In this document: positions 7,838-10,322 of the stretch, piece by piece
How positions within the stretch are numbered: position 1 is the first letter of the stretch
How the letters are laid out: each line of letters begins with the position of its first letter
Assembly (NCBI GenBank): GCA_937944445.1
Contig: CALDYP010000004.1
Location: 1 to 64,000 of the forward strand
Direction of reading: 5' to 3'
Source: an uncultured Anaerolineae bacterium
Lineage (GTDB): Bacteria > Chloroflexota > Anaerolineae > Aggregatilineales > Phototrophicaceae
Length of the DNA stretch: 64,000 bases
The notes under the pieces: model-generated
What the model was told of the DNA's origin: nothing
Seen by the model: the letters and a program-made list of their open reading frames with translations, nothing else
Database searches by the model: none
Program-made: the position numbers and the translations under genes

Positions 7838-7866
7838 TTGCCGCTGCTGCCAAGCCAGCGTACAAT
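7838..7866 (+). promoter_or_regulatory. Promoter of cdd
   Basis: TTGCCG (7838-7843) and TACAAT (7861-7866) are separated by exactly 17 bp, a good housekeeping promoter. Transcription would begin near 7873, ahead of the terminator hairpin at 7886-7911 and the ATG at 7934. Confidence 0.6.
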
Positions 7867-7885
7867 TCACAACAATCAACCGTCC

Positions 7886-7911
7886 AGCACACGCCTTTTG
7901 TGTGCTTTTTT
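7886..7911 (+). terminator. Intrinsic terminator or attenuator in the cdd leader
   Basis: A perfect AGCACAC/GTGTGCT stem with a GCCTTTT loop is followed directly by a run of six T. It lies between the cdd promoter and start codon, so it would stop most transcripts from that promoter unless regulated. It could alternatively end read-through from the upstream gene. Confidence 0.65.
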
Positions 7912-7933
7912 GTCCTCAACCACGGAAGATTGC

Positions 7934-8338
7934 ATGCAGCCACTCGATGATGGACAGCAGCGCGCGGTTCAAGCGGCCATTCAAGCCGCGCAGCAGGCTT
8001 ATGCCCCCTACTCACAGTACCACGTGGGGGCGGCGCTGTTGGCGGCGGACGGGCGCATCTTCACTGGCTGCAACGTTGAAAACGCCTCTTACCCAGCCGG
8101 CATCTGTGCCGAGCGCGGCGCGTTGGCTAAAGCCGTCAGCGAGGGCGCACGAGACTTCTCACTGGTGGTGGTGGCCACACAAAATGGCGGCTCGCCATGC
8201 GGCATTTGCCGTCAGTCATTACTCGAATTTTCGCCAGCGGCCCGCGTGCTGTGTGTAACGTTTGAGGGCCTCGTGCACGTTGATTCCACCGTGGCTGAGT
8301 TATTGCCGTTCGGGTTTTCCCCCCGCAGCTTGATCTAA
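7934..8338 (+). CDS. cdd: Cytidine deaminase
   Basis: A 134-residue homotetrameric-type cytidine deaminase of normal length, which converts cytidine and deoxycytidine to uridine forms in pyrimidine salvage. The zinc motif is complete: Cys-Ala-Glu in NASYPAGICAERGAL and Pro-Cys-Gly-Ile-Cys in GGSPCGICRQSLLEF. The conserved Asn-Val-Glu-Asn substrate loop is also present. The start is the ATG at 7934, preceded by GGAAG; an upstream in-frame start at 7838 would fall within the promoter and terminator. The gene stands alone between the second inverted-end element and the 8.4-9.0 kb box cluster. Confidence 0.92.
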   Translation: MQPLDDGQQRAVQAAIQAAQQAYAPYSQYHVGAALLAADGRIFTGCNVENASYPAGICAERGALAKAVSEGARDFSLVVVATQNGGSPCGICRQSLLEFSPAARVLCVTFEGLVHVDSTVAELLPFGFSPRSLI

Positions 8339-8618
8339 ATCGCCTCGCTTCAACTGCTCTTAACGTGCGGCCAGTGGCCTCAACGCGCCTATCTCGCGGC
8401 ATTTTTTCCCAAGCCGACGCCGTCATTTTTGGGACATATATCCCCATGTTACAACCATGTAACAAATCTGATCCGTTTTTGTCAGAAAATATCGCAAGAT
8501 GCAGGCCGATAGGGGAGGGGATTTCGCAAATATCAATCAATAAGTGAACAAGTGTTCCGAACATATCGCAAGTAATTTTACCCAAGTGATATGTTTTATC
8601 ACAACCGAACACTTGATC

Positions 8619-8911
8619 TGTTCATAACTCTGTTGATAACCTGTTGATAACCTGTTCATAACTGGCACTTGCCTGTTGATAACTTATCGCAGATTTTATA
8701 ATCGGTGTAATCCTTGCGAAACGCTGGGGATATATCAGAGCACCCCTGTTGAAACTGTTGATAACCTGTTCATAACTTTGGCGCGCCTGTTGATAACTCA
8801 TCGCGCCAAGTATCACACATTGACCCACAAACTGGGGAAATGTGCGCGCTTTCTGGGATAGGCTTGGGACAAATAACCCACATGACGGCTTTCGTTTCAA
8901 AGTTATCAACA
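8619..8911. repeat. Array of nine DnaA-box-like TGTTSATAA repeats
   Basis: Forward copies of TGTTGATAA or TGTTCATAA begin at 8619, 8631, 8642, 8653, 8674, 8756, 8767 and 8788; one reverse copy (TTATCAACA) is at 8903-8911. Spacings are 12, 11, 11, 21, 82, 11 and 21 bp, that is, near one or two helical turns, and the 11+21 triplet is repeated (8642-8682 and 8756-8796). The sequence differs from the canonical DnaA box TTATCCACA at position 6, and in three copies also at the tolerant position 5. Confidence 0.85.
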
Positions 8912-8999
8912 GTTTGAACAGCCCTACTACTAGCACTACCCTACATACATAAGAAATGATCCTATCAAGCCATTGCACACGTTCCTCTAGAACAAACCC

Positions 9000-9026
9000 C
9001 ATGTTCTACGTAGAACATGCTACAAT
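9000..9026 (+). promoter_or_regulatory. 20-bp perfect palindrome beside a -10 box
   Basis: CATGTTCTACGTAGAACATG (9000-9019) is a perfect palindrome, followed one base later by TACAAT (9021-9026). The position suggests an operator that overlaps the promoter of the GAF kinase gene starting at 9072. A related imperfect GTTC...GAAC site is just upstream at about 8981-8993. The regulator is unknown. Confidence 0.55.
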
Positions 9027-9071
9027 GAGGATGCTGTATGAGTTGCATTTAATCAAATTGGATGAACACTT

Positions 9072-10322
9072 ATGAACGACCTTATGGAAAAGGTTCGTCA
9101 GTTAGAGCGTAAAAACGCAATCCTCGTCAAACTGGCCGAGATCAGCGCATCGCTGAACTCGCAGTATGACCTGCAGCCCTTGTTACAGTACATCATGCAG
9201 GTAGCGGTTGAAATTACGGATTGTGAGGCAGCATCCGTTCTGTTGTGGGACAGCCAGCGCCAAGAGCTGTTCTTTGCGGCGTCTACGACGGTGGACAACA
9301 ACAACGAGCTGGTTGGCAGGGCTGTCCCGATGGAGAGCATCGCGGGGACGATCCTGCGCCAAAATGAAATCGTCATCGTCAACGACACAAGGCGCGATCA
9401 ACGTCACTACGACCAAGTGGACAAAGAAATTGCTTTCCAGACGCGCTCGCTGTTGGGCGTGCCGATGCGTTATAAAGACCGCGTCATCGGCGTGCTGGAG
9501 GCGCTTAACAAGCGCACGCTCCCGTGGACGAAAGACGACAGCGATTACCTGATGACGTTAGCTGCGCAGGCTGCCGTGGCCATTCAAGGCGCGCAGCTCG
9601 TGATGGAGCTAAAACGCGCCAATGATGAGCTGAGCGAGGTAGATAAGCTCAAGAACGATTTCATCGCCATCGCCTCACACGAGCTGCGAACGCCGCTGGG
9701 CGTCATCATGGGCTATGCCAGCTTCTTGCAAGACAGCGACAGCCCCGACACGCAAGAACATGCCACCAAAGTGCTGGAGAGCGCCCTGCGGCTGCGCAAG
9801 ATCATCGAGGACATGGTGAACCTGCGCTACCTCAAACAAAAGCAGAGCGACTTGCACCGAGAAGAGACCGACGTCCGCACGATCCTAGACTTGGTGCGCA
9901 TCGAGATCGACGCTGTGTTTGACGTGAGCCATCACGATTTTCAGATTAAATACCCGGCTGAGGGGCTGCGCGTCTACGTCGACCAAACGCGCTTGTCGAT
10001 GGCGTTGATGAGCTATGTGCACAACGCCTTCACCTTTACCCCTCAAGGCGGCAAGATCACGATTGACGTGCAAGCGACCCCCTCAGAGGTGCGTTTCCGT
10101 GTTGCTGATACCGGGATCGGCATCGAGAGCGACAAGCTAGAGCGCATCTTTGAAGAGTTCTACCAAGTTGAAGATCACATGATCCGCCACCATGGGGGGC
10201 TTGGCATTGGGCTGAGCATCGCCCGCGCGATTGCCACCGCCCACCGTGGCCGTGCATGGGCTGAAAGCGCTGGCCTCGGCAAAGGGGCGACGTTCTATCT
10301 CTCGCTGCCGCGGCTAACTTAG
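9072..10322 (+). CDS. GAF-domain sensor histidine kinase
   Basis: A 416-residue soluble kinase: short coiled coil (1-28), GAF domain (about 30-175), a second coiled coil, HisKA with the phosphoacceptor His203 in [10 protein letters not shown], and a HATPase domain (about 295-412) with N-box-like HNAFTF, G1 DTGIGI and G2 GLGIGLSI. It should autophosphorylate in response to an intracellular signal; there is no transmembrane segment. Its first gene neighbour downstream is the convergent FHA gene, whose end overlaps by nine bases, so no cognate regulator is adjacent. The OmpR-type regulator at 17395 is the nearest candidate. The start is preceded by an operator-like palindrome. Confidence 0.88.
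   Translation: MNDLMEKVRQLERKNAILVKLAEISASLNSQYDLQPLLQYIMQVAVEITDCEAASVLLWDSQRQELFFAASTTVDNNNELVGRAVPMESIAGTILRQNEIVIVNDTRRDQRHYDQVDKEIAFQTRSLLGVPMRYKDRVIGVLEALNKRTLPWTKDDSDYLMTLAAQAAVAIQGAQLVMELKRANDELSEVDKLKNDFIAIASHELRTPLGVIMGYASFLQDSDSPDTQEHATKVLESALRLRKIIEDMVNLRYLKQKQSDLHREETDVRTILDLVRIEIDAVFDVSHHDFQIKYPAEGLRVYVDQTRLSMALMSYVHNAFTFTPQGGKITIDVQATPSEVRFRVADTGIGIESDKLERIFEEFYQVEDHMIRHHGGLGIGLSIARAIATAHRGRAWAESAGLGKGATFYLSLPRLT

Follow-up and report, generated by a model that had tools for sequence, protein, structure and literature searches.

Does the AT-rich gap between a cytidine deaminase gene (cdd, 7838-8338) and a GAF-HisKA-HATPase kinase gene (9072-10322), found in a 64-kb stretch of DNA (the window) from an uncultured Anaerolineae bacterium of the phylum Chloroflexota, mark the place where the chromosome of this organism begins to replicate? 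An earlier note, made from this sequence alone, had proposed a candidate chromosome origin here on the strength of nine phased, variant DnaA boxes in about 290 bp. Our computational analysis found a cluster of boxes that is conserved at one place in related genomes, a switch in GC skew at that place in two relatives, dnaN or dnaA as its neighbors in several relatives, and a DnaA-trio module. On this evidence, which comes mainly from the relatives, the gap at 8339-9071 is very probably the chromosomal replication origin (oriC), and we infer that DnaA binds at the boxes and that replication starts in this gap.

The motif TTATSAACA occurs in the window exactly nine times, always within 8619-8911, against a chance expectation of 0.21; nine sites were reached in none of 100 shuffles. 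Eight of the sites are on the minus strand and the final one (8903-8911) is on the plus strand. The start-to-start steps (12, 11, 11, 21, 82, 11, 21, and 115) confirm the 11- and 21-bp phasing, and the repeated triplet that had been noticed with it (8642/8653/8674, recurring at 8756/8767/8788) sits in a 53-nt direct repeat whose copies are 85% identical and 114 bp apart. Six boxes read TTATCAACA, which differs from TTATCCACA only at position 6, and three read TTATGAACA, which differs at positions 5 and 6. The deviation at position 6 described in the earlier note thus holds for all nine boxes, each of which has A instead of the C of canonical TTWTNCACA, but the description passes over the second mismatch in three of them. 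The G+C content of the array gap, taken in 40-bp steps, is 33 to 60%, compared to 62.8% across the window, and the two minus-strand open reading frames in it (8136-8612 and 8622-9002) had no match to any Pfam family, in agreement with the description of an AT-rich gap without a gene. The locus therefore shows what is looked for in an oriC, an intergenic, AT-rich region where DnaA boxes are clustered more than chance would predict. Its features are listed in Table 1.

Table 1. Features of the candidate origin region, in window coordinates
Feature	Position	Strand	Basis
Candidate oriC region, cdd-to-kinase gap	8339..9071	.	Pfam gene absent; arrays of relatives upstream of the same kinase
DnaA-type box TTATGAACA	8619..8627	-	Motif count
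DnaA-type box TTATCAACA	8631..8639	-	Motif count
DnaA-type box TTATCAACA, first member of triplet 1	8642..8650	-	Motif count, repeat
DnaA-type box TTATGAACA	8653..8661	-	Motif count, repeat
DnaA-type box TTATCAACA	8674..8682	-	Motif count, repeat
DnaA-type box TTATCAACA, first member of triplet 2	8756..8764	-	Motif count, repeat
DnaA-type box TTATGAACA	8767..8775	-	Motif count, repeat
DnaA-type box TTATCAACA	8788..8796	-	Motif count, repeat
Conserved final DnaA box TTATCAACA, part of the unwinding module	8903..8911	+	Motif count, relatives
Weaker tandem second box GTTTGAACA	8912..8920	+	Read by eye; tandem second box also in relatives
Short GC-rich spacer, GCC	8921..8923	+	Sequence reading
DnaA-trio run CTACTACTA, complement 3'-GATGATGAT-5'	8924..8932	+	Module statistics; definition from the accessible part of PMC8287927
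AT-rich stretch past the trios, candidate unwinding site	8940..8965	.	Sequence reading; analogy
Second repeated word TATCSC/GSGATA at 8439, 8490, 8564, 8685, 8727, 8855	8439..8860	.	
20-bp perfect palindrome CATGTTCTACGTAGAACATG, upstream of the kinase gene	9000..9019	.	
GAF-HisKA-HATPase kinase gene, conserved neighbor of the array	9072..10322	+	

The genome to which the window belongs (3.23 Mb in 92 contigs, 81% complete) contains 30 copies of TTATSAACA, nine of them in 8619-8911, and a search of these contigs for a second cluster, suggested earlier as a check, found none. As had been stated, dnaA is not nearby: it is encoded on a separate contig (C22), where its 19.5-kb surroundings contain zero copies of TTATNNACA. 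Neither dnaA nor dnaN is near the array in this genome, and the kinase gene is still found with the array.

Orthologs of this kinase were sought in 60 relatives, with a match in 52 of the 61 genomes. Defining an array as at least four TTWTNNACA sites within 750 bp upstream of the ortholog, we found arrays at 30 of 45 kinase loci: the same family contributes 26 (from 30 loci), and the remaining families of the order, which we take to be GTDB order SBR1031, contribute 4 (from 15 loci). The 45 loci do not include G053 (only 116 bp of upstream sequence), G037 (the match starts at the contig end), second kinase copies, or the kinase loci of family f8 (G043, G049, G054, and G059), which have 0 or 1 box each. 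Four of the 15 loci without an array belong to the same family: the upstream sequence is interrupted by contig ends in G004 and G023, and it is complete, yet without an array, in G007 and G015; G023 and G007 carry paired boxes elsewhere, away from the kinase upstream region. Counted from the kinase start, most relatives have a plus-strand box at about -140 to -220. The flank of the array that faces away from the kinase encodes dnaN in six same-family genomes (G013, G020, G022, G024, G025, and G030; checked with Pfam), and dnaN also adjoins the array at the named loci L284, L286, L295, and L355. The dnaA gene adjoins it in G045, in G056, and at the named locus L303; the G045 array, in which three boxes were found, is not among the 30 counted. 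The named relatives are Chloroflexi/Anaerolineae metagenome-assembled genomes, one of them titled Aggregatilineales and one titled Bacteroidetes. Across these genomes, the kinase gene keeps its place by the origin and dnaA and dnaN move; there may be a link between this kinase and the cell cycle. The 30 arrays also contain 130 copies of the word TATCSCA, mostly TATCCCA, versus 5.3 expected, with at least two copies in 27 arrays; these words could be weak DnaA sites or sites for another factor.

At its kinase-proximal end, the array has the layout of a known unwinding module: TTATCAACA at 8903-8911, GTTTGAACA at 8912-8920, GCC, CTACTACTA at 8924-8932, and then AT-rich DNA. According to the text available from PMC8287927, the basal unwinding system consists of one or more DnaA boxes, a spacer of up to 16 bp, and 3'-GAT-5' trios, and at 8903-8932 trios indeed lie no more than 16 bp from a DnaA box. 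The tandem boxes, the short GC-rich spacer, and the 3'-GAT-5' trios are shared with the Bacillus subtilis oriC (DnaA-boxes 6/7 plus DnaA-trios) as presented in that text, and the spacer of 12 bp that separates the first box and the trios falls within the 10-13 peak given there. Unlike the B. subtilis oriC of the same account, the boxes here mismatch TTATCCACA at positions 5-6, and their neighbors are cdd and a histidine kinase gene, not dnaA. A box-like end followed by a trio word within 7 bases was found in all 30 arrays, as opposed to 2.9% of dinucleotide-model shuffles, and also at 2 of the 15 kinase loci that have no array.

Because the genome that contains the window is too fragmented for a GC skew test, the position of the skew minimum, another check suggested in the earlier note, was taken from its relatives. 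The chromosome of G028, a member of the same family, is complete in a single contig of 5,631,885 bp that begins at dnaA. In eighty 20-kb samples, the skew was negative in 38 of the 39 from 3.71 Mb via 0 to 0.79 Mb and positive in 39 of the 41 on the 0.835-3.66 Mb arm. The best two-point split (0.835/3.71 Mb) is near-opposite on the 5.63-Mb circle, and 77 of the 80 samples are consistent with one ori/ter pair. The array of G028 is at approximately 844.5-844.8 kb, 191-543 bp upstream of the kinase gene (843,039-844,280), and the cumulative skew, followed in 500-bp steps through the array-containing sample, has its minimum at 843.5-844 kb. It is thus the orthologous array, rather than dnaA (position 1), that marks the switch in skew sign. 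The numbering of this contig (C1; L074, L134) starts at dnaA, with the skew minimum 0.84 Mb off. In G009 (contig C9), the skew is negative in 15 of the 16 samples on the left side of the array and positive in all 4 on the right, with values of -0.020 and +0.040, so that G009 shows the sign change and G028 the minimum itself. The contig of the window (C4), which is short, shows a weak change in the same direction, from -0.035 on the left to only +0.004 on the right.

The earlier note had also raised the possibility of a lineage-specific DnaA site, and the DnaA sequences bear this out. Residue positions are given here in what we take to be E. coli numbering. Asp433 is missing from 45 of the 54 DnaA domain IVs of this order, its place being taken by Ser (15), Asn (11), Lys (5), Ala (5), Thr (5), Arg (2), Gln (1), or His (1). 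R399, R432, H434, and T436 are kept in all 54 and P423 is kept in 40. DnaA of the window's own genome has Asn433 with R399 and H434 retained, and the other tabulated contacts are kept as well, so that only D433 is lacking from the canonical R399/D433/H434 set; the residue list was taken from the accessible part of PMC7561715. Outside the order, Asp433 is present in 139 of 143 pattern matches, among the 150 matches listed, and two of the four non-Asp rows (G156 and G206) come from genomes that also have an Asp match and may be due to chance. The available text of PMC5742627 places TnCACA recognition in the helix at 434-451, and that of PMC5043019 lists base-specific residues 432-435 and 438-439 and describes the 433-434 dyad as highly conservative.

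The loss of Asp433 co-occurs with non-CC boxes. Among 241 TTWTNNACA boxes in arrays whose genomes have a non-Asp433 DnaA or, in three cases (G018, G021, and G027), an unread domain IV, the central dinucleotide is GA in 117, GC in 44, CG in 30, CT in 25, and CA in 16, with nine others, and the canonical CC is found in none. In contrast, CC centers account for 14 of 17 boxes in the arrays of three Asp433 genomes, G039, G046, and G057, all from family f4. Doublets from two Asp433 genomes of family f7 support this contrast: there are two CC doublets in Asp433 genome G048 (f7) and one mixed doublet in Asp433 genome G042. Of the 115 genomes from outside the order, 66 have CC doublets, versus 0 of 5 from inside it; doublets without C at position 6 are present in 3 of 5 genomes inside versus 5 of 115 outside. 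There are exceptions: in Asp433 genome G052, one doublet located away from the kinase is non-CC; Asn433 genome G038 has two mixed doublets with one CC box in each; and at locus L303 (Asn433) one of the four boxes is TTATCCACA. A finer code relating individual residues to bases was not supported: among non-Asp genomes, residue 433 did not significantly predict base 6 (permutation P = 0.09 in 24 genomes; P = 0.37 in 19 genomes, one per genus and residue). G011 (Thr433) has ten GA boxes and G029 (Ala433), from the same genus, has eleven GC boxes; DnaA of G056, with dnaA next to the array, has Lys433.

Overall, origin boxes of the non-Asp433 lineage read TTWTSNACA. They have the TTWT and ACA ends in common with the E. 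coli consensus TTWTNCACA, as given in the accessible part of PMC7561715, and differ from it in that position 6 can be A, C, G, or T and position 5 is nearly always G or C. A lineage-specific DnaA box is likewise described in the available text of PMC5043019 for the epsilonproteobacterial oriC (core TTCAC, with T at position 5); however, Epsilonproteobacteria, according to that text, keep C6 with rare exceptions and conserve the dyad, whereas the present lineage has lost Asp433 and leaves position 6 free. A literature search by title and abstract found no report of Asp433 loss, of box co-evolution, or of Chloroflexi/Anaerolineae origins of this kind.

Could the array bind DnaA and yet not be an origin? 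A titrating or reactivating locus similar to datA or DARS, with replication beginning elsewhere, is very unlikely, given the change of skew sign at the orthologous arrays of two genomes from the same family, the trio module, the dnaN or dnaA neighbors in relatives, and the single cluster in the window's own genome. DnaA box clusters outside origins are known, and family f8 (G043, G049, G054, and G059) may offer an example: a mirrored 14-box TTATSAACA cluster (L056:9527-9910, L057:9483-9866, and equivalents in G049 and G059), flanked by a PHP-like gene on one side and a CRP-like/Hsp20/Lon cluster on the other (named from their translations), lacks a local skew switch in the 9.5 kb to its left and to its right (19.5 kb in all) and may be a titrating locus. 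An operator array for some other regulator, for example, one controlling the adjacent kinase gene, without any DnaA binding, would fit the deviation of the boxes from the E. coli consensus, and the closeness to the kinase start follows from how the loci were picked; but the Asp433 genomes G039, G046, and G057 use mainly CC boxes at the same place, and with the trio module and the skew switch this makes such an array extremely improbable.

A different objection accepts the origin and questions its tie to DnaA. Positions 5-6 could have drifted independently of Asp433, with both traits shared by descent; the absence of a significant residue-to-base code among non-Asp genomes is consistent with this view, as are the few independent Asp/non-Asp contrasts, the array comparison coming down to three Asp433 genomes of one family. 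We consider such a coincidence unlikely, though it deserves some weight, since 433 is the only tabulated contact lost throughout, CC centers are absent from the 241 boxes of arrays with a non-Asp433 or unread DnaA and prevail in the arrays with Asp433, and outside the order Asp433 accompanies CC doublets. The loss of Asp433, a base-contact residue, is therefore the probable reason that boxes in this lineage are not TTATCCACA.

If the gap is oriC, domain IV of DnaA would bind the phased TTATSAACA boxes, reading them with a changed recognition helix and otherwise unchanged DNA contacts. DnaA would then assemble from the last tandem pair (8903-8920) across the CTACTACTA trios (8924-8932) and, by analogy with other bacteria, melt the AT-rich stretch beyond them. 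The basal unwinding system itself is already known; the new element is the altered specificity, that is, the box center together with the loss of Asp433. It is about an even question whether this loss relaxed or re-set the reading of positions 5-6, so that origins drifted by genus to GA, CA, GC, CG, or CT centers and initiator/origin pairs became perhaps incompatible even within a genus, as in G011 versus G029.

DnaA and the DnaA box are commonly regarded as almost universal, and origin finders that rely on boxes begin with TTATCCACA. With a conserved residue gone and the boxes changed, origins of this environmental order could therefore escape detection or be misplaced at dnaA. A lineage that combines a lost base-reading residue with altered boxes represents a natural series of initiator/origin pairs, which would allow tests of how DnaA recognizes DNA and of the co-evolution of initiator and origin.
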